DNA of 50,864 bases, taken from the NCBI GenBank assembly GCA_012840405.1, contig DULM01000125.1, positions 1 to 50,864 on the forward strand. The letters are read 5' to 3'. Every line of letters begins with the position of its first letter. Within the stretch, counting starts at the first letter, position 1. The notes under the pieces were generated by a model. That model saw only the letters and a program-made list of their open reading frames with translations, made no database searches and was not told the DNA's origin. This DNA comes from Syntrophomonadaceae bacterium. GTDB taxonomy: Bacteria > Bacillota > DSM-12270 > Thermacetogeniales > Thermacetogeniaceae. Below, one piece after another: positions 4,043 through 45,810 of the stretch. A program made the translations under genes and the position numbers.

Positions 4043-4066
4043 CAATTTACAAAAATATGAAAAGTC

Positions 4067-4185
4067 TCCTTCTCCCATCCAGACTTTAACTGTCGGCTCC
4101 AGAATTCCACTGGATCAATCCAGGTCAGTCACCCGGATTCGCGGGCTTTCACCGCCGGTGTGGAATTTCACCACCCCCCGAAGGA
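4067..4185 (-). promoter_or_regulatory. FMN riboswitch (RFN element)
   Basis: On the minus strand this contains the conserved RFN pieces in order: GGTGAAATTCC, ACCGGCGGTGAAAGCCCGCG and AGTCTGGATGGGAGA. The closing helix P1 pairs UCCUUC (4185-4180) with GAAGGA (4072-4067). It precedes ribD and is followed by an intrinsic terminator at 4010-4042. This is the standard arrangement for transcriptional repression of riboflavin synthesis by FMN. Confidence 0.97.
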
Positions 4186-4217
4186 CCTTCCAAATACATT
4201 ATTCACATGTCTGTTTC

Positions 4218-26305: not shown

Positions 26306-26373
26306 TCTAACTTATAACCACTAATCACCTATAACCAATCATCTAACCACCGACGACTAACCACCAACCACTA
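26306..26373 (-). repeat. degenerate TGGTTAG heptamer array after pyrE
   Basis: On the minus strand, about nine units near TGGTTAG (TGGTTGG, TGGTTAG, TCGTCGG, TGGTTAG and so on) run from the pyrE stop codon toward the terminator. The TAG stop of pyrE fits the unit's own phase. The period of seven is shared with the GAAGTCN arrays at 2752-2890 and 42465-42645, but the unit differs. Confidence 0.65.
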
Positions 26374-26943
26374 TTCCTTCCTGCTCCCAGGCTTTACTAC
26401 CGGAATACCCTCCCGGCACAAGGGGCAGTCATCAGGAGCATAGGTTTCTATATCAAGTTTGAGCAGTGGATGAAATGGCACACCAAAATCCAGCTCTCCA
26501 CTGTGGCGATCTACCAGAGAGCCGACACCTACAACTACTCCACCATATCCCTCTACCATGTTAATCACCTCTTTAGTGGAGCCGCCGGTTGTTACCACAT
26601 CCTCCACCACTAAAACTCTTTCTCCCTTTTCGATCTCAAATCCACGGCGCAGGGTCATCTTTCCCTCTTCCCGCTCTGAGAAGATAGCCCTAACTCCCAG
26701 GGCTCGCCCTACCTCCTGAGCGATAACAATACCCCCGATGGCAGGGCCCACAACTAAGTCAGGATCTAGATCTCTGAACTTGTCAGCAATTCTCTGCCCT
26801 AATTTTTCCGCCAGATCAGGGTACATCAAGACCCTGGCACACTGGACATAGCGGTTGCTGTGCAGCCCTGAGGTCAAACGAAAATGCCCCTCTAAAAGAG
26901 CTCCTCGCTCTTTAAAAAGCTCAACAAGTTCCTGTTCTTTCAT
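26371..26943 (-). CDS. pyrE: orotate phosphoribosyltransferase
   Basis: Joins orotate to PRPP to form orotidine 5'-phosphate. The PRPP-binding motif is VLVVEDVVTTGGSTKEV near residue 110. The N-terminal segment FRLTSGLHSNRYVQCARVL and the C-terminal CPLCREGIPVVKPGSR are typical of the shorter type found in Firmicutes and archaea. Length is 190 residues. Its ATG overlaps the pyrF stop (ATGA). It is the last gene of the pyr operon. Confidence 0.96.
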   Translation of the reverse strand: MKEQELVELFKERGALLEGHFRLTSGLHSNRYVQCARVLMYPDLAEKLGQRIADKFRDLDPDLVVGPAIGGIVIAQEVGRALGVRAIFSEREEGKMTLRRGFEIEKGERVLVVEDVVTTGGSTKEVINMVEGYGGVVVGVGSLVDRHSGELDFGVPFHPLLKLDIETYAPDDCPLCREGIPVVKPGSRKE

Positions 26944-27659
26944 TTTAATGCCTCCTCCATTTCTTCTACGATCTCTAAAGCCGCCTGACGGGGATCCGGT
27001 GCCTGCACTATAGGACGCCCCACCACAATGTAATCCACCCCGGCCTTTACAGCGTCAGCAGGTGTGCTGATCCTTTTTTGATCACCTGCTCCTGCTCCCG
27101 CAGGCCTGATCCCTGGGGTAACGATTAGGAAATTACCGCCGCAGTGCTGGCGGATTGCTGTGATCTCCACAGGGGAGGCCACAACACCTGAGAGCCCGCA
27201 CTCCTCTGCCTGTTCGGCCCAGAAGATCACCTGCTCAAGGGGTGACCTGTTGATCCCCAGATCCCGGTGCAATTCCTCAGCACCGAGGCTGGTCAGGACT
27301 GTAACAGCCAGTATTTTAGGAGGGTTCTTACCTGCAGACTCTTCCCTTACAGCATCCACTACAGCCTTCATCATCTCCCTGCCGCCTGCTGCGTGCACAT
27401 TGAACATTTCAACACCCAACCTGGCAGCGGCACGCCCTGCTTGGGCAACTGTTCGGGGTATATCATGAAATTTCAGGTCCAAAAAGACCCTTCCCCCTTT
27501 TTGCTGGATCTCTTCTACAAAGGAGGGACCGAAATTACAGAAGGGCTCCAAACCTATTTTAAACATACCGCAGCAGTCATGAAGCAGGGCAACCAGTTCC
27601 AGTGCCTTTTCTCGTTCAGGAACATCCAGTGCCACAATCAATCTATCTTTTGCCTGCAT
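26940..27659 (-). CDS. pyrF: orotidine 5'-phosphate decarboxylase
   Basis: Makes UMP from OMP. The TIM-barrel protein of 239 residues starts with RLIVALDVPEREKAL and has the catalytic Lys-Asp network in VFLDLKFHDIPRTV near 60, followed by GVVASPVEI and the phosphate-binding VTPGIRPAGAG and YIVVGRPI. The start is ATG with GGAGTG upstream. It follows pyrD by 14 bases. Confidence 0.97.
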   Translation of the reverse strand: MQAKDRLIVALDVPEREKALELVALLHDCCGMFKIGLEPFCNFGPSFVEEIQQKGGRVFLDLKFHDIPRTVAQAGRAAARLGVEMFNVHAAGGREMMKAVVDAVREESAGKNPPKILAVTVLTSLGAEELHRDLGINRSPLEQVIFWAEQAEECGLSGVVASPVEITAIRQHCGGNFLIVTPGIRPAGAGAGDQKRISTPADAVKAGVDYIVVGRPIVQAPDPRQAALEIVEEMEEALK

Positions 27660-27673
27660 CTAAATCACTCCAA

Positions 27674-28588
27674 CTATTTTTCTTTCCAGGCTGCTCCTAC
27701 AAGATCTTGCAGCTTTTCCACACCGTGATCAGTACAGTACTGATCCAGTTCATCGATGATCTTCACAGCAGCCAGCGGATCATAGAAGAAGGCGGATCCT
27801 ACAGCTACAGCTGAGGCACCTGCCATGATATATTCCAGGGCATCCCTGCCAGTGGTGATCCCTCCCATGCCGATGACAGGTAAATCCACCAGCTGGGATA
27901 CCTCCCAAACAGCCCTCACACCCACAGGCCTGATAGCTGGCCCAGACAGTCCACCAATACAATTACCCAAAAAGGGTTTTCTTTTGTCTACATCGATCAC
28001 CATACCCACCAGTGTATTGATCAAGGAGATGGCATCTGCCCCTGCTGCTGCCACTGCTTGGGCCAGTTCTTTGATATCGGTCACATTAGGGGTTAATTTG
28101 ACAATAACCGGCAAATCAGTTGCCTGGACAACCGCCTTGACCACTTCAGCTGCCACTTCAGGCACAGTACCCAGTGCCATACCCCCGGTTTTTACATTAG
28201 GGCAGGAGATGTTGACTTCTAAGCCAGCAACCCCTGTCTGGGTTAAACGCTCAGCCAGATAAACAAATTCATCACCGGTACTGCCGGCGATATTGGCAAT
28301 CACAGGCACCCCAAACTCCAGCATTTCGGGAAGATAATCCCTGATAAAGACCTCAACACCGGGGTTCTGCAGCCCTACTGCATTTAGGAGCCCAGCAGGG
28401 GTTTCACAGATCCTGGGAGATTTGTTCCCTGCCTTGGGTTCTTTGGTCAGTCCTTTGGTCACCAGTGCTCCCATCTTGCTCACATCAAAAACAGATGCAT
28501 ATTCAACACCTGAGCCAAAGGTTCCTGAAGCAGACATCACCGGGTTTTTCATCTTGATTCCTGCCAAATTCACTGTAAGGTCACTCAC
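27674..28588 (-). CDS. pyrD: dihydroorotate dehydrogenase, class IB catalytic subunit
   Basis: Oxidises dihydroorotate to orotate and passes electrons through PyrK to NAD. The family blocks are NPVMSASGTFGSG near 19, the catalytic Cys in EVNISCPNVKTGG near 125, VIVKLTPNVTDI, and the FMN phosphate site GMGGITTGRDALEYIMAGASAV near 240. The frame extends to 28678, but I chose the GTG at 28586-28588 since GGAGGTGG lies upstream and the protein then starts VSDLTVNLAG, giving 304 residues. It overlaps the pyrK stop by eight bases, which fits a coupled heterotetramer. Confidence 0.95.
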   Translation of the reverse strand: MSDLTVNLAGIKMKNPVMSASGTFGSGVEYASVFDVSKMGALVTKGLTKEPKAGNKSPRICETPAGLLNAVGLQNPGVEVFIRDYLPEMLEFGVPVIANIAGSTGDEFVYLAERLTQTGVAGLEVNISCPNVKTGGMALGTVPEVAAEVVKAVVQATDLPVIVKLTPNVTDIKELAQAVAAAGADAISLINTLVGMVIDVDKRKPFLGNCIGGLSGPAIRPVGVRAVWEVSQLVDLPVIGMGGITTGRDALEYIMAGASAVAVGSAFFYDPLAAVKIIDELDQYCTDHGVEKLQDLVGAAWKEK

Positions 28589-29366
28589 CCAGGACCACCT
28601 CCTCAGCTGAAAAAACGGGGCCTTCTTTACAGACTCTGAGGTATGATCCATCATGCCCCTGGCAAACACACCCCACACAGGCCCCTACTCCACAGGCCAT
28701 CCGTTCATCCAATGACAGCTCTGCAGCTATCCCCTTTTCCCTGCTCATCGTCTGTACTCCTTTTAATACAGACAGGGGCCCACAAGCAAATAACTTATCA
28801 AAGGAGGATTTTGCCAACTCCCTAGACAGCAAGTCCAGTATAGTGCCCTGCTCCCCACAACTTCCATCTTCTGTAGCGATTATTAGATCACCACACTCCC
28901 TAAAGGCATCAGGGCGCAGGATACCTGACTTATTGCGGGCTCCCATGAGGATTACCAAATCCCATCCTTGTGCTCTCAACTCTGAGGCCAGGAAAAGGAG
29001 TGGGGCTACACCAACACCTGCGCCAACGATCATCGCTCTACCACCGGCAGCGCTAAAGCTAAAGCCCCGCCCCAGAGGTCCCAAAAGGGACAGCTTATCA
29101 TGCTGACACCTCATTGATAACCATTTTGTCCCCTTCCCTCTGACCTGGTAGAGAAATAACACCTGCCCTTTGTTTCTATCCACCTGATGGATCGCCAGAG
29201 GGCGGCGCAAAAAAGGGTCATAGCCCTCACTGCAGCGCAGCATAGCAAACTGGCCTGGGGAGGAATTCCGGGCCAGTTCCGGCGCCTCCAGTTTCAACAG
29301 GTAATAGTCAGGGGCTAGTGCATCCTGTTCTATCACCCTGCAGCTAAACTCTTCTGGTCCTTTCAT
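28581..29366 (-). CDS. pyrK: dihydroorotate dehydrogenase electron-transfer subunit
   Basis: The FAD and [2Fe-2S] subunit that couples PyrD to NAD. The ferredoxin-reductase fold shows the FAD site FLRRPLAIHQVD near 52 and the NAD-binding GAGVGVAPLLFLASEL near 115. The C-terminal cluster-binding cysteines are CGVGACVGCVC followed by a fourth Cys in RVCKEGPVF. Length is 261 residues. AGGAG lies upstream of the ATG. Confidence 0.96.
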   Translation of the reverse strand: MKGPEEFSCRVIEQDALAPDYYLLKLEAPELARNSSPGQFAMLRCSEGYDPFLRRPLAIHQVDRNKGQVLFLYQVRGKGTKWLSMRCQHDKLSLLGPLGRGFSFSAAGGRAMIVGAGVGVAPLLFLASELRAQGWDLVILMGARNKSGILRPDAFRECGDLIIATEDGSCGEQGTILDLLSRELAKSSFDKLFACGPLSVLKGVQTMSREKGIAAELSLDERMACGVGACVGCVCQGHDGSYLRVCKEGPVFSAEEVVLGE

Positions 29367-29481: not shown

Positions 29482-32400
29482 TTATTTGGTATACTCATCC
29501 AGCGGAATGATGGCAGCCTCCTCACCGCTTTTTACAAAGTCTATACAGTCGATCATTGCTCTGGCTGTATCCAGGGAAGTAAGGCAGGGTATACCCCGTT
29601 CTACTGCTGCCCGCCGGATCTGGAAGCCATCCCTCACAGCTCCCCTTCCCCCGCTATGGGTGTTGATCACAAAGCCCACCTTTCCAGAGTTGATCAGATC
29701 CACCACATGGGGGGAACCTGCTTCAATTTTATTGACCTCTTTTACTTCTATTCCGTGTTTCTGTAAAAAGCGAGCCGTTCCCGGTGTGGCCACAAAACTC
29801 AGCCCGATTTGCTGCAAGCTCTGAATGATCGGCAATGCCTCCTCCTTGTCCCGGTCCGCAATGGTTACCAAAATCTCACCGGAAAGGGGTATTGAACTGC
29901 CTGCTGCCAGGAGTCCTTTATAGAGGGCTCGCGGCACAGAGTAATCCACACCCATCACTTCTCCTGTTGACTTCATCTCAGGGCTCAAGTAAATGTCCAC
30001 CTGGCTCAGTTTGCCAAAAGAAAAGACCGGCACTTTAACAGCCACCAGAGAATTAGGCTCTACCAGTCCGCTTTTGTATCCCATCTCCTTTAAGGTCTTG
30101 CCAAGCATCACTTTAGTGCTCAAACTGACCATCGGGATACCTGTAATCTTGCTCAAATAGGGAACAGTCCTGCTGGCCCGAGGATTAACCTCCAGGACAA
30201 AAATCTGTCCCTGATAATAGACAAACTGGATATTGAGCAAGCCCTTTATCTGCAGGGCTCGCGCCAATCTGGTTGTATAATCGATCATCGTCTCCCGCAC
30301 ATCATCTGTGATCTGGGCGGGATAAACAGCAATACTATCCCCTGAATGGACACCTGCTCTCTCGATATGCTCCATAATACCAGGGATCAGCACATCCTCC
30401 CCATCACTGATGGCATCAACCTCCAATTCCTGACCCTGGTAATACTTATCTACCAGAATGGGGTGGTTCTGGGAAACCGATACCGCAGATTCCACATAAT
30501 CTGCTAAATCATCTTCATTATATACGATTTCCATGGCCCGGCCGCCTAAAACATAAGAAGGGCGTACCAAAACCGGAAAACCGATTTCCCGGGCAACTGC
30601 CAGTGCTTCTTGCAGAGATGTGGCTCCACGACCAGGAGGCACAGGTATATTTAATCTATCAACCAGTTTTTCAAAACGCTCCCGGTCCTCAGCCTCATCT
30701 ATCATATCCACAGAGGTACCTAAAACCTTTACACCTTCTGCGTGAAGGGGACCAGCCAAATTGATGGCTGTCTGCCCTCCGAACTGAACAATAACCCCAT
30801 CCGGCTTTTCCAATTCCACCACATGGAGCACATCCTCATATGTCAGGGGCTCAAAATAGAGCCGGTCAGCGGTATCAAAATCTGTACTGACCGTCTCTGG
30901 ATTATTATTGATGATCAGTGCCTCAATCCCTTCACTTTGCAAAGCTCTGACCGACTGCACAGAGCAGTAATCAAATTCAATCCCCTGGCCGATCCTGATG
31001 GGCCCTGATCCGATGACCAGCACTTTCCTCCGATCAGTGGGTATTGCCTCATTCTCCTCCTCATAGGTGGAATAATAATAAGGGGTAGCCGCCTCATACT
31101 GGGCCGCACAGGTATCAACCTTTTTGTAAACAGGTAAAACCCCAAATTGTTGGCGCAGATTCTTGAGTTGTTGCTGATTGATACCGGTCAGACTGCTGAT
31201 CAAGTTATCGCTGAAGCCTTTTCTCTTCGCCCTTTTCAGCAATTCAGGGCTTAGGTCTTGTACATTTTTGACAGCGGCCAGCTCCCTTTCCATACTGACT
31301 ATTTCCTCTATACTCCTCAAAAAGAAAGGGTCAATCTTGGTAAGCTCAGCCATTTTGTCTACTGAAAAACCGCGCCTAAAACCCTCAGCAATCAAAAAAA
31401 GGCGTTCATCAGACGCTACTTTTATCCTGTGCAGGAGCTTTTCTGTATCCCAGGATTCAAGCCCAGGGAAAGAGAGGCCATTAGCTGTTATCTCCAGTGA
31501 CCTGACAGCCTTCAGCAGAGCCCCGCTAAATGTGCGGTCAATGGCCATCACCTCTCCGGTGGCCTTCATCTGTGTACCCAGAGAGCGATCTGCATCCTTG
31601 AATTTATCAAAGGGCCAGCGAGGAAATTTAACTACACAATAATCCACAACCGGCTCGAAACAAGCACTGGTCTTGCCGGTCACAACATTTTCGATCTCAT
31701 CCAGCCGCAAACCCAGGGCTATTTTGGTGGCAACTCTGGCAATGGGGTATCCTGTAGCCTTGGAGGCCAGTGCACTGGACCTGCTGACCCTGGGGTTGAC
31801 CTCAATAACATAATAATTAAAGCTGTTCGGGTCCAGAGCATATTGGATATTACAGCCACCCTCAACCCCCAGTGCCCTGATGATCTTCAAAGAAGCTGTG
31901 TGCAGCATCCTGGTCTCCTCATCACTCAGGGTCTGGGTGGGAGCCACAACTATGCTGTCCCCTGTATGAACCCCCATAGGATCGATGTTTTCCATATTAC
32001 AGACCGTTATACAGTTATCAGCACCATCCCGGATAACCTCATATTCAATCTCCTTCCAACCACCCACACTGCGCTCCACCAGCACTTGGTTGATCATGCT
32101 GAAGGAAAGCCCCCGTCTAACCACACTTACCAATTCATCATCATCGGTAGCCAGACCGCCACCGGTCCCACCTAAAGTGTAAGCCGGCCGCACCACAACC
32201 GGGTAGCCCACTTCCTGAGCAAAGGCCAGGGCCTCCTCAACACTTTCCACTACTTCACTTTCAGGAACAGGTTCACCAATCTCCCGGAGCATTTCCTTAA
32301 AAAGCTCCCTATCTTCAGCCTTTTTTATGGCTTCTAATGGTGTACCCAGCAGGCGCACCCCATTTTGTTCAAGAATTCCCGCCTCTGAAAGCTGTACCGC

Positions 32401-32694
32401 CAGATTGAGCCCCACCTGTCCTCCCAGGGTAGGCAAGAGCCCATCAGGCTGTTCTTTTTCGATCACCCTCCTGACAAAGTCCAGGGTTAATGGCTCGATA
32501 TATATCTTATCCGCTATCTCCCGGTCAGTCATGATAGTTGCAGGATTGCTGTTCACCAGTACAACTTCAATACCCTCCTCTCGCAAGGAGCGGCAGGCCT
32601 GTGTTCCAGCATAGTCAAATTCTGCAGCCTGTCCAATTATAATTGGGCCAGACCCGATCACCATTACCTTTTTCAAATCCGGAATCCGCGGCAT
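29482..32694 (-). CDS. carB: carbamoyl-phosphate synthase large subunit
   Basis: Makes carbamoyl phosphate from bicarbonate, two ATP and ammonia. The 1070-residue protein has the duplicated ATP-grasp layout. The first half starts [20 protein letters not shown], the second [20 protein letters not shown] near 560, and the C-terminal allosteric MGS-like domain covers about 930-1070. Metal and ATP residues appear in [19 protein letters not shown] and [19 protein letters not shown]. Nothing looks damaged. GGAGGG precedes the ATG. It must use ammonia directly if its partner CarA is glutaminase-dead as seen here. Confidence 0.97.
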
Positions 32695-32785: not shown

Positions 32786-33844
32786 TCACAGCATAACCAA
32801 AAATTCATCAAAATATCGATTGATATCAAAAACATCTGGATTGACTACAGGGTAATATTGGAAGGCAAAGGCCGGTAACTTACAGTGTTTCATTCCTTCT
32901 ACAGTGCCATCATGTAAATTAACCTGGGTTACTATCACATCTTCAGGTAAACTGTCTCTATCCACATAGTAATGATGATTTTGAGATGTAACAAAAATAC
33001 TGTTTGATTCCAGGTCACGTATCGGCTGATTACCACCGCAATGACCAGCTTTCAGCTTCAATACCTTTCCTCCCCAGGCCAACCCTAGAACTAAGTGTCC
33101 TAAAGCAATACCTAGCAAGGGAACTCTCCCTAACAATTGCTGTACATTGGTTACAACATAAGGAATAAGCTGGGGGTTACCTGGACCTCCAGCAAAAACC
33201 ACTCCTGCAGGACGATAGCTGAGGATCTCATCAACAGTTGATAGAGCTGATACTAGAACAACAGTTAAATTATGCTCAAGCAAATAGTTGATCAGGGTCT
33301 GCCGCACACCCAAGTCAACTACAACCACCTTTTTGCTTCCCTGGCCAAAAACCTTAGTTTCTTTTGTAGAAACCTCCCTCACTAAATCCCGCTCTGCAGC
33401 AGCAGTTTCCCGGGCCATCTGGACAAGTTTTTCTATATCATCTTCTTCAGTTGTGATCACTCCATACATACTCCCATTCCTGACCAAGTGCCTGACTAGC
33501 GCTCTGGTATCAATAGCTGACAGACCGATCAAATTTTTTTCCTTGCAAAAATCCTCAAGGCTCATCATGCTCCGCCAGTTGCTGGGATGGGCACATACCT
33601 CTCTAGCTACCAAGCCTTGTGCAATGGCAGAAACAGAATCATTGTCCTCTGGCATGATCCCATAATTCCCCAACAAAGGATATGTAAAAACCACGATCTG
33701 CCCATAAGAAGCGGGATCAGTGAGTATCTCCTGATAACCGGTCATACTGGTGTTGAAAACAAGCTCACCGGTCTTAGTTCCCCTGGCACCAAAGCCTTGC
33801 CCCTGATAAAAAGTACCATCCTCTAATACCAAGTAGGAATTCAA
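32786..33844 (-). CDS. carA: carbamoyl-phosphate synthase small subunit with lost glutaminase triad
   Basis: By family and position this is the subunit that normally hydrolyses glutamine and feeds ammonia to CarB. Both domains are present: the N-terminal domain (residues 1-150, with GELVFNTSMTGYQEILTDP and IDTRALVRHL) and the class I amidotransferase domain (172-352, with VVVVDLGVRQT, KAGHCGGNQPI and VTSQNHHYYVD). Length is 352 residues, normal. The catalytic Cys is Ala247 (GIALGHL instead of GICLGHQ), the catalytic His is Tyr331 and the Glu is Val333 (QYYPV instead of QYHPE). NGPGDP has become GGPGNP. It is predicted to be glutaminase-inactive. The start is TTG with AAGGGG upstream. Confidence 0.93.
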   Translation of the reverse strand: MNSYLVLEDGTFYQGQGFGARGTKTGELVFNTSMTGYQEILTDPASYGQIVVFTYPLLGNYGIMPEDNDSVSAIAQGLVAREVCAHPSNWRSMMSLEDFCKEKNLIGLSAIDTRALVRHLVRNGSMYGVITTEEDDIEKLVQMARETAAAERDLVREVSTKETKVFGQGSKKVVVVDLGVRQTLINYLLEHNLTVVLVSALSTVDEILSYRPAGVVFAGGPGNPQLIPYVVTNVQQLLGRVPLLGIALGHLVLGLAWGGKVLKLKAGHCGGNQPIRDLESNSIFVTSQNHHYYVDRDSLPEDVIVTQVNLHDGTVEGMKHCKLPAFAFQYYPVVNPDVFDINRYFDEFLVML

Positions 33845-33874: not shown

Positions 33875-35161
33875 CTATATATTTTGCAGTTGACGGGAAT
33901 ACTTGATCTCACCTGAAACAATAGTCATCACCGGCCATCCCCGCAGGACCCAACCATCGAAAGGAGAGTTCTTGCCTAAAGAAACAAATTCACCAACATT
34001 GACTGGCTGTTGTAAGCTGGGGTCGATCACTGTGATGTTTGCCTCAGCGCCAACTTCGATCAACCGCTCAGGAAGCCCTAAAATACGAGCAGGGTTCCAT
34101 GCCATTTTTTGTGCCAATTCCACAGGACTCAACAGTTTGCTTTCTACCAAATGCTCCCAAACAAGGGGAACAGCAGTCTCCAAACCAGAGATGCCGAAGG
34201 GGGCAACATTATATTCGGTCTCCTTTTCATCCCTGCGGTGCGGTGCATGGTCAGTTGCTATGGCATCGATAGTGCCATCCCTGAGCCCTTCATAGAGAGC
34301 TTCCTGATCCTCTTTAGAACGCAGTGGTGGCTTAACCTTGGTGTTGGTATCGAAACTTTTAACCGCTTCATCTGTCAGACAGAGGTGGTGTGGTGTTACT
34401 TCAGCTGTAACTCTGATCCCGCGTTTTTTCGCCTCCCTGATCAGTGCCACAGAACCGGCAGTGCTGACATGAGCGATATGAAGCCTAGCCCCGGTGAGGC
34501 CCGCAAGGATCAAATCCCTTGCTACATGAACTTCCTCAGCAGCATTAGGAATCCCCTGCAGACCCAGCAGTGTGGAATAAAAGCCTTCGTTCATTACGCC
34601 ATTTCCGCTTAAATTCGTATCTTCACAATGGCTGATGATGGGAATATCAAACATCTTTCCATATTCCATTACCCTGCGGAGTACCTCTCCATTCATAATT
34701 GAATTCCCGTCATCAGAGATAGCAACAGCCCCTGCCTCTACCAGATCCCCAATCTCGGCCGGCTCATTACCAGCCATCTCCTTGGTGGCACAGCCCACCG
34801 GGTAAACAGGGAAAGATGCCTGCCGGGCCTTTTCTTTGATCAGAGTGATCACTGAACTGCTGTCTGCTGGTGGTTTGGTATTTCCCATACAGGCAACAGC
34901 AGTAAAGCCTCCTTTAACAGCTGCCCTCGTGCCGGTAAGAATGGTTTCTTTTAATTCCTCACCAGGTTCCCGGAGGTGGCAGTGCATGTCCACAAAACCG
35001 GGGAAGATATAACAGCCTTTTAAATGCAGCACCTCAAGGCCTCTACAATCCAAATTCTCAGCAACTGCAGTGATTTTGGAACCTTCGATAAGAATATCCA
35101 GTTTTTTTGCACTATTTGATACAGGGTCAACAACAATCCCTTCTTTAAGCAGATAGTTCAT
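33875..35161 (-). CDS. pyrC: dihydroorotase
   Basis: Cyclises carbamoyl aspartate to dihydroorotate. It is the class I zinc amidohydrolase type, with [10 protein letters not shown] for the first metal site, [26 protein letters not shown] and the catalytic Asp in ATDHAPHR. The chosen ATG at 35161 has GGAGGTG six bases upstream, giving 428 residues; the open frame reaches 35170. It overlaps the pyrB 3' end by 17 bases. Confidence 0.96.
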
Positions 35162-36086
35162 CTTTTTCACCTCCGGCCATCAACAGATAGAGGAGTGCCA
35201 TGCGCACTGCTACACCATTGGTCACCTGCTCATTGATAACTGCATGGGGTCCATCTTGAACATCTGGGCTGATCTCGATACCCCTATTGACAGGTCCCGG
35301 GTGCAGCACCAGCACATCAGGCTTGGCCACCTGAAGTTTCTGCTGATCCAATCCATAAAGCTTAGTGTATTCGCGGATACTGGGAAAGAGGCCCTTCTTT
35401 TGGCGCTCCAACTGTATGCGCAGTACATTGATCACATCTACATCCTTAAGCCCTTCCTCCCAGTCATAATAAGCCTTTACCCCTAATCTTTCAATTTCAG
35501 GAGGTATCAATGTGGCAGGACCCACCACCCTTACTTCCGCTCCCATTTTAGTTAAACCCCAGATATTGGAACGGGCCACCCTGCTGTGGGTAATATCACC
35601 CAGGATTGCCACTTTGAGCCCCTTAAATCCACCTTTTTTCTCCCGAATTGTAAACATGTCCAATAGAGCCTGAGTGGGATGCTCATGTGCTCCATCACCT
35701 GCATTGATCACCCTGGCCTTTACCCAGCGGGCTAGGAGATGGGGGGCTCCAGCAGCACTGTGCCTGATAATGATTACATCTGCTGCCATTGCTTCCAATG
35801 TTCTTGCAGTATCCCGTAGGCTTTCACCCTTCTGCACACTGCTGGTTGCAATAGCAATACTGGAGGTATCAGCTCCTAGGTATTTTGCTGCCAACTCAAA
35901 AGAAGAGCGGGTACGAGTGCTGGGCTCATAAAATAGCGTAATAACTGAACGACCGCGTAAAGTAGGCACCTTTTTGATGTCCCGGCTCATAATCTCTTTC
36001 ATAGGCTCTGCTGTATCCAATATCAAGGTTATTTCTTCAGCTGTTAGCTCCTCTAATCCGAGGACATCCTTGCGCTTGAACTTCAT
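35145..36086 (-). CDS. pyrB: aspartate carbamoyltransferase catalytic subunit
   Basis: Condenses carbamoyl phosphate with aspartate. The 313-residue protein has the carbamoyl-phosphate motif [13 protein letters not shown] near 55, [13 protein letters not shown] near 130, and [13 protein letters not shown] near 262. No regulatory subunit gene (pyrI) is present, as is usual in Firmicutes. Its leader carries a PyrR site and a terminator (36114-36195). The ATG has AGGGGG about 13 bases upstream, the only visible ribosome-binding site. Confidence 0.97.
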
Positions 36087-36113
36087 AGTCTTATTATTAC
36101 CCCCTTGCTATTA

Positions 36114-36158
36114 TTAAAAAAACCTCTTTGCTGCCATTTACAGGCTAACAAAGAGGTT
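36114..36158 (-). terminator. attenuator terminator between pyrR and pyrB
   Basis: On the minus strand, AACCTCTTTG (36158-36149) pairs perfectly with CAAAGAGGTT (36130-36121), followed by a T tract into the pyrB leader. It sits just downstream of the PyrR-binding site at 36176-36195, forming a standard PyrR attenuator. Confidence 0.92.
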
Positions 36159-36175
36159 AACAACCTTCTCTCCCC

Positions 36176-36195
36176 CTTGCTAGCCTCTCTGGACT
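36176..36195 (-). promoter_or_regulatory. PyrR binding site in the pyrB leader
   Basis: The minus strand reads AGTCCAGAGAGGCTAGCAAG, a full match to the known PyrR anti-antiterminator loop (UCCAGAGAGGCUxGCAAG). Binding of PyrR with UMP would favour the terminator at 36114-36158. Confidence 0.93.
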
Positions 36196-36217
36196 AGATT
36201 TAAAGGGTTCTCTTTGG

Positions 36218-36772
<555 letters not shown>

Positions 36773-45544: not shown

Positions 45545-45810
45545 AAAAATAATAAAACCCCTCATCTGAGGGGCGAGAATTCCCGCGGTACCACCCTAAT
45601 TCCTTCTTTATAAAAAGAAGGCTCTTTATAAGGAGTAACGTTCCTTAGACGTCCTGATTTACTCACCTACTGAACTGGGTTTTCATCAGGCACTCCCGGG
45701 TGATTTTTTGCTGTTCTTGTCTGCTGGTCTTCCACCCTCACCAACTCGCTGTAAGAACAAAAACAACATACTCGTCCCGGTCATCGCTTTGCCCACGATC
45801 CTAAAATATT
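45545..45810 (-). promoter_or_regulatory. T-box leader of ileS (isoleucine specifier)
   Basis: On the minus strand the conserved T-box AGGGTGGTACCGCG is at 45597-45584. The specifier loop near 45704-45702 presents ATC (Ile) followed by A, on the 3' side of a long stem I whose arms include GTTCTT / AAGAAC. An intrinsic terminator, CCCCTC / GAGGGG with a T tract (45573-45545), precedes ileS. Uncharged tRNA-Ile binding would favour the antiterminator and allow ileS transcription. Confidence 0.95.

Follow-up and report, generated by a model that had tools for sequence, protein, structure and literature searches.

The carbamoyl phosphate synthetase encoded in the 50,864-nucleotide stretch of Syntrophomonadaceae DNA analysed here (the window) is very probably fed by ammonia, with its small subunit CarA kept as a non-catalytic partner of CarB, and this would be one element of a withdrawal from glutamine channelling across the lineage. 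What was observed comprises the losses in sequence and how they are distributed on the trees, purifying selection on carA, and partner genes that are intact; that the cell uses free ammonia, and what CarA does, are inferred, in the absence of activity data. The gene and its altered codons are as follows.

32786..33844, minus strand: carA (pyrAA), 352 aa from a TTG start, a class I amidotransferase whose triad is dead, A247/Y331/V333 (frame, alignment, and profile match)
33104..33106, minus strand: GCT codon of Ala247, replacing the nucleophile Cys269 (codon read directly, and alignment)
32852..32854, minus strand: TAC codon of Tyr331, replacing the catalytic His353 (codon read directly, and alignment)
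32846..32848, minus strand: GTA codon of Val333, replacing the catalytic Glu355; Leu in the relative G002 (codon read directly, and alignment)

The alignment of window CarA with E. coli CarA (chains 1c30_B and 1cs0_B), whose numbering is used for the triad, takes in almost the entire protein. The three replacements, claimed in the first-pass annotation from the letters alone, were borne out by direct codon reading and by this alignment; so were the 84-residue spacing between the Cys and His positions, identical in the two proteins, the change of GHQ to GHL, and the altered form of the conserved (S)NGPGDP, which reads AGGPGNP. The frame is indeed intact, open over its 352 residues, and both domains are present above cut-off: PF00988 (the N-terminal CPSase_sm_chain domain, 166.7 bits) and PF00117 (class I GATase, 114.3 bits). 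TIGR01368 matches over the full length (391.9 bits against a cut-off of 307.35), as does NF009475 above its own threshold (370.7 against 221). Beyond the triad, the alignment places Ala45 at Ser47, Leu251 at Gln273, His291 at Gly313, and Asp-Val-Phe at Gly359-Pro360-His361 of the E. coli protein. Ser47, Gln273, and Gly313 presumably line the glutamine pocket, and Gly359 is taken to lie on the ammonia tunnel. (Structure prediction of CarA from five sequences gave a mean pLDDT of 33 and was not used.) Window CarA is a homologous small subunit, yet with Ala/Tyr/Val it fails the Cys-His-Glu criterion of a glutamine-hydrolysing CarA; judged by its sequence it is no glutaminase, and absence of the activity itself is inferred. 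A profile search of the window's genome (G000; the window is contig C127 of this 2.13 Mb assembly, which has 261 contigs and is 84.9% complete) found a single PF00988 match and no second carA.

The gene lies in a minus-strand pyrimidine operon, in the order pyrR, PyrR-binding RNA element, pyrB, pyrC, carA, carB, and then pyrK-, pyrD-, pyrF-, and pyrE-type genes.

36218..36766, minus strand: pyrR (family match)
36113..36209, minus strand: PyrR-binding RNA element RF00515, the operon attenuation signal (Rfam, 56.1 bits against a gathering score of 54)
35145..36086, minus strand: pyrB, aspartate carbamoyltransferase, the user of carbamoyl phosphate (family match)
33875..35170, minus strand: pyrC, dihydroorotase (family match)
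29482..32694, minus strand: carB (pyrAB), 1070 aa, full-length synthetase subunit directly downstream of carA (family match)
28581..29366, minus strand: pyrK-like electron transfer subunit (named from sequence and place, without a family test)
27674..28678, minus strand: pyrD-like dihydroorotate dehydrogenase (named from sequence and place, without a family test)
26940..27659, minus strand: pyrF-like OMP decarboxylase (named from sequence and place, without a family test)
26371..26943, minus strand: pyrE, orotate phosphoribosyltransferase (family match)

The RF00515 match supports the PyrR control that had been assumed for this operon. CarB, earlier described as normal, is complete, with a full-length family match and ATP-grasp motifs that align with those of E. 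coli; only one carB was found in the genome. Elsewhere the window carries a T-box leader (RF00230, 128.6 bits; 45566-45793, minus strand) and an FMN riboswitch (RF00050, 109.6 bits; 4063-4189, minus strand).

Among relatives, G000, G001, G002, and G003 make up the window's genus, G010 belongs to a sister genus, and G007 is the nearest intact relative. A survey of 20 genomes of the class recovered CarA at E 1e-25 or better in 16, and in 12 of these the full triad is present (in G017 as read from a partial gene). The remaining four genomes, with one CarA copy each, read A/Y/V (G000 and G003), A/Y/L (G002), and S/Y/A (G010). The CarA proteins of G003 (LFTQ01000049.1, 'Clostridia bacterium DTU068') and G002 (DUSK01000099.1, 'Syntrophaceticus sp. 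AS04akNAM_129') are, respectively, 90% and 88% identical to that of the window. An error of sequencing or assembly might be suspected where the genomes of a genus are fragmented and incomplete, two of them MAGs; it is hardly credible here, because the loss is repeated in separate assemblies, with residues that partly differ in the sister genus, and three other genes show parallel losses.

Incompleteness of the genus assemblies does limit claims of gene absence. Neither CarA nor CarB was found in the genus member G001 (82% complete), nor in G009, G018, and G019 (94-97% complete). On contig C36 of G014 (L152), pyrR, pyrB, and pyrC are followed after 111 bases by carB, and carA is missing; this CarB groups with that of G010 in the CarB tree. 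(G014 apparently holds two gene sets, an intact one on C3/C120 and a clade-type one on C34/C36, and is perhaps a mixed bin; it was scored as 'other' for PurQ and GuaA, with contigs C34 and C36 cited separately.) Given this carA-less operon and the three nearly complete genomes in which neither gene was found, a kept CarA partner does not hold for the whole clade.

Where carA persists in the genus it is under purifying selection. Pairwise dN/dS among G000, G002, and G003 is 0.13-0.20 (NG86) or 0.22-0.26 (YN00) for carA, and 0.08-0.11 (NG86) or 0.10-0.14 (YN00) for carB; within carA the constraint is about equal for the GATase domain (0.13-0.25) and the N-terminal domain (0.13-0.20). The ratio of CarA to CarB distance, calculated with the first 540 aa of CarB, has a median of 2.23 for pairs of a dead and an intact CarA (range 1.87-2.46; 36 pairs), 2.33 for dead-dead pairs (1.10-2.60; five pairs), and 1.16 for intact-intact pairs (0.69-1.70; 35 pairs with a CarB distance above 0.05). 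These ratios, like the dN/dS values, are computed per pair and lack phylogenetic independence. Purifying selection together with a roughly doubled divergence relative to CarB indicates that CarA has been kept, but under a changed constraint. The same doubled rate, and the clade contig with no carA between pyrC and carB, could be taken to mean that CarA is a decaying remnant without a role, its loss recent, and that CarB works alone on ammonia. This is unlikely: the carA frame is intact, without stops, in all four clade genomes that possess the gene, and selection acts on both domains among three of those four. Nor is the active site likely to have been remade for another reaction or ligand (a sensor, for example), with nitrogen still drawn from ammonia. 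The Ala, the Tyr, and the residues NHHY(Y/F) do not vary within the genus, and selection constrains the GATase domain, as such a new function would have it; G010, however, has only the Tyr in common, with Ser and Ala at the other triad places and Gly-Cys for the His-Tyr of the genus. Release from constraint fits this better, and a remade site remains very improbable.

CarA is one of four glutaminases affected in the clade formed by DTU068 and its sister genera. The GMP synthetase GuaA was recognized through PF00958 in 19 of the 20 class genomes. Its open frame spans 328 aa in three genus members and in G019, and 381 aa in G002, as against 517-588 aa in ten other genomes of the class (the 185-aa frame of G015 lies close to a contig end). 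All five short proteins start at the ATP pyrophosphatase domain, the greater length in G002 consisting of unrelated residues added before it, and two GATase-bearing parts of GuaA, run as tblastn queries, detected no GATase similarity upstream of any of the five. Two further genomes retain a damaged domain: GuaA of G010 has GIGEGMQ in place of GICYGMQ, Tyr in place of His, and about 45 fewer residues; that of G018 has GIGGGMH at the elbow and retains HPE. In G009 (469 aa) the GATase region is partly N-masked and the upstream region unreadable. An intact elbow was read in G006, G007, and G014, and the remaining genomes were judged from PF00117 matches. The NCBIfam 'glutamine-hydrolyzing' models, from which NCBI takes protein names, match both window CarA and the 328-aa GuaA above cut-off, so that routine annotation would hide the loss.

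In PurQ the nucleophile Cys has become Gly (GIGNGFQ) in all eight clade genomes read (G000-G003, G009, G010, G018, and G019); the 11 other class sequences all have GICNGFQ, and HPER stands in all 19. HisH was not found by PF00117 search in the four genus members, G009, G018, or G019. Its synthase partner HisF scores above cut-off in G000, G001, G003, G018, and G019, and in G009 it occurs in fragments, its frame being partly masked; G002 and G010 gave no HisF, and no claim about hisH is made for either. The his operon of G000 runs hisG-hisD-hisB-hisA-hisF-hisIE without hisH (frames read by eye; HisF and HisA family-tested). With HisH of G007 as query, tblastn of the his stretches of G000 and G003 gave no match better than E 4, and recovered the true HisH in the controls G006 and G007. 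Contig C34 of G014 likewise has hisB-hisA-hisF and no hisH. (The underlying loci are L105-L108 and L111 for GuaA; L123 and L125-L131 for PurQ, with L126, L127, L130, and L131 from sister genera; and L142-L147 and L165-L167 for the his operons.) A separate peculiarity of G018 is the fusion of hisA and hisF in one 498-aa frame that matches both families; G019 has the identical layout, and no hisH was found in either (L145 1498-3000 and L147 1498-2991, about 500 aa).

In the trees of the surviving partners these genomes fall together, insofar as each possesses the gene. Support for the branch that sets the genus, G009, G010, G018, and G019 on one side of the GuaA tree is 100/99. HisF places the genus members, G009, G018, G019, and G014-C34 in one group (100/98), with G007 next (97/99); CarB joins the genus, G010, and G014-C36 (100/96), again with G007 next (94/92). 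G007, assembled as one contig of 2,939,057 bases, retains CarA, GuaA, PurQ, and HisH. The simplest account is that the losses started once the lineage had separated from G007 and that their later steps differed from branch to branch.

Loss of every amidotransferase in the clade was considered and ruled out. Where read, the Cys is kept by TrpG/PabA (GVCLGHQ in G000, G003, and G010), by PyrG (G001, G002, G009, G018, and G019, and a fragment in G010), and by PurF (EACGVFGIY in G001, G003, G009, and G010; family-tested in G001), so glutamine has not been wholly abandoned. In G001 the TrpG/PabA match (G001:C58:16732-17273) runs across two overlapping frames of 101 and 159 aa, which a frameshift might explain. 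The intact TrpG/PabA of G000, G003, and G010 leaves room for a supply in trans, in which this protein or an unrecognized glutaminase would feed CarB, GuaA, and HisF, and glutamine would still be the nitrogen donor. Such an arrangement is quite improbable. The partner sites are, by inference, still occupied by the retained dead CarA and PurQ, and the PF00117 search disclosed no extra glutaminase in the (incomplete) assemblies: two, three, three, and two matches in G000, G003, G001, and G002, respectively, with two of those in G001 being one TrpG in pieces.

How far these losses extend was assessed in a phylum sample of 259 genomes, 186 of which have CarA at E 1e-30 or better. From 128 genomes, class members included, 148 CarA sequences were read, the weakest-scoring matches being under-sampled. 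The nucleophile Cys is present in 128 of the 148 and absent in 20 (15 Gly, 3 Ala, and 2 Ser), and mapping the nucleophile position on a tree of the 148 sequences (FastTree; support values not shown) requires at least nine changes for loss of the Cys. Recurrence of the loss in several families of the phylum disposes of any suggestion that it is unique to the window. Among the matches found, no Cys-bearing CarA occurs in 13 of the 128 genomes, from six families: G000, G002, G003, and G010 (f1); G025 (f7, two copies); G034, G145, and G171 (f16); G082 (f21); G058 (f40); and G137, G188, and G257 (f73). Another four, G053, G061, G079, and G241, have a Cys-less CarA together with an intact copy, and G031 has two damaged copies (C/Y/E and G/I/N) and a GuaA with its Cys. 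(The second CarA copy of G195 was left unread.) Cys-less CarA loci of other families, mostly with Gly, are L230, L237, L240, L268, L270, L271, L278, L286, L260, L264, L255, L263, L283, L239, L030, and L355; in the six of these from f16, Asp replaces the His in addition to the loss of the Cys. Four loci stand outside the 148: L037 (Lactobacillus sp.), L040 (G017, partial), L036, and L038, with L036-L038 drawn from other sources. One of them, L037 5001-6050 from a Lactobacillus sp. MAG, encodes a CarA relative with Gly for the nucleophile and Asn for the His.

The other glutaminases were followed in 14 genomes with damaged CarA from outside the clade and in six controls. PurQ, or the glutaminase domain of PurL, was found in 11 of the 14: ten read GICNGFQ (G025, G053, G058, G061, G079, G082, G137, G171, G188, and G241), and that of G031 (L295) reads GISNGNQ, with Ser for the Cys. 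There was no PurQ match in G034, G145, or G257, and the Cys is present in the six controls. The GuaA GATase has decayed outside the clade in G137, G257, and G058, and its Cys is intact in the ten others read; G188 gave no GuaA-type PF00117 match (sequence unread). HisH is intact in all six genomes read outside the class (G025, G053, G061, G079, G171, and G241; HisF not included). Across the sample CarA is most often affected and GuaA and PurQ more rarely, with partial versions that take in CarA alone, CarA and GuaA, or CarA and PurQ; all four are affected jointly only in the window's clade. Two broader notions could be rejected: that the full syndrome attends every lineage with damaged CarA (most keep the Cys of PurQ, and that of GuaA where read), and that PurQ loss is confined to the window's clade (excluded by the Cys-to-Ser change in G031). 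The latter case narrows what is unique to the clade, yet it is a further instance of the same trend. Since f16 and other families have a dead CarA beside GuaA and PurQ that are intact where read, CarA can be lost without a general retreat.

The window organism is a DTU068-type member of the Thermacetogeniaceae. DTU068 is described as an uncultured genus of this family that oxidises acetate syntrophically in thermophilic digesters (PMC10689502), and a species close to DTU068 sp001513545 has received the name Ca. Thermosyntrophaceticus schinkii (PMC11932165). For reactors with DTU068 the same papers give free ammonia at a mean of 445 mg NH3-N/l (PMC10689502) and free ammonia nitrogen at 0.7-1.0 g/L (PMC11932165), and a third gives 0.7-0.9 g NH3 per litre (PMC10579422). 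The first two values convert by calculation to about 32-71 mM free NH3. Thermotoga maritima HisF without HisH, supplied with ammonium salts, was taken as ammonia-saturated at 14.4 mM NH3 in PMC11350729; the published reactor concentrations, which are not intracellular values, exceed this at least twofold. For CPS, PMC6245113 states that CarB produces carbamoyl phosphate from ammonia, with CarA as the glutaminase, and that the E. coli enzyme requires very high, likely non-physiological, concentrations to run on ammonia; E. coli variants whose glutamine tunnel has been blocked or perforated are normally active with external ammonia (PMC4655335). The link to ammonia rests on the published DTU068 reactors alone, in the absence of habitat data for G007 and the remaining intact genomes.

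These data suggest a mechanism. CarA, unable to hydrolyse glutamine, would stay as a structural and possibly regulatory partner of CarB; environmental NH3 would cross the membrane, enter CarB, and react with carboxyphosphate as usual. It would feed GuaA, PurL, and HisF directly as well, their synthase functions being kept where the glutaminases of GuaA, PurQ, and HisH appear dead or missing, and ambient free ammonia at tens of mM would suffice in place of local release from glutamine. With NH3 fed directly, it is inferred, the glutaminases would no longer have been of value and would have decayed, each at its own rate. As subunits of a complex, CarA and PurQ may have outlasted the GuaA domain and HisH. 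The clade has probably given up glutamine at four or more steps (at least carbamoyl phosphate, GMP, FGAM, and imidazole glycerol phosphate) and runs on ambient NH3; part of this reading is that the four enzymes represent different stages of decay: a dead subunit kept, a dead domain shrinking, a domain deleted, and a gene deleted. An ammonia-fed synthetase with CarA as partner had been put forward from the window alone. It now has strong comparative support, from conservation in the genus, selection, CarB, the parallel losses, and the ammonia-rich habitat, with activity still inferred; a partner role for CarA does not hold across the whole clade.

Known systems offer partial parallels. The ammonia-specific mitochondrial CPS1 of vertebrates, like the window CarAB, has a dead glutaminase-like domain beside a working synthetase, with Ser294 for the Cys in the human enzyme and free ammonia as donor (PMC4655335, PMC7657897), and human CPS1 is among the PDB sequence matches of window CarA. 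Unlike it, CPS1 is a single fused eukaryotic protein of the urea cycle, activated by N-acetylglutamate; in the window the counterpart is a bacterial subunit of its own, encoded in a pyrimidine operon that carries a PyrR site; all three of its triad residues are replaced, and other glutaminases of the clade are lost in parallel. Of the marks of a CPS1-type enzyme, a replaced nucleophile Cys with intact synthetase halves is met and a single fused polypeptide is not (there are two genes). The window CarAB may resemble CPS1 in its working, its use of NH3 being inferred, without being a member of that group.

E. coli CarAB and its glutaminase-dead variant 1c30 (Ser at 269) share the architecture, the alignment, and an ammonia-capable CarB with the window (PMC6245113). 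The E. coli enzyme differs as a glutamine user that takes ammonia only at very high concentrations (same source), whereas the loss in the window is natural and fixed in its clade. Single-domain NadE, an ammonia-dependent NAD synthetase of bacteria, likewise lacks a glutaminase and amidates with free ammonia in vivo (PMC3376133). In Table 1 of that paper, NADS is the only one of eight families with a 'no glutaminase' class (490-886 genomes per enzyme); GuaA is 100% fused in 730 genomes, and carAB without a glutaminase occurs in none of 600. The table records gene presence, not triad integrity, and the window's clade departs from it in GuaA and also, on a single contig, in CarB. Archaeal PurF' is another amidotransferase homologue without its nucleophile (the N-terminal Cys) and a suggested ammonia user (PMC3261824); it differs in being of PurF type with an intact PurF alongside, where the window's clade has class I losses, no intact copy found, and a PurF that keeps its Cys. 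The first-pass annotation knew of no such loss in a PyrR-controlled bacterial operon, and a search restricted to open-licence PMC papers also found none describing this loss in bacteria. The idea for a single enzyme is known from animals; what seems to be new is that a single bacterial clade has lost several glutaminases in stages.

A Cys-bearing CarA has gone from genomes of the window's clade and of five further families in the sample. This allows the reasons for channelling ammonia to be tested: at tens of mM outside NH3 the glutaminase is apparently dispensable, step by step, and close relatives allow the stages to be compared. In biogas practice the losses are a possible genomic marker of organisms tied to high ammonia. 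If the account is true, the organism would be an obligate ammonophile, without growth in ammonia-poor settings unless supplemented, and its clade would be a natural model for the loss of the channel in channelled enzymes.
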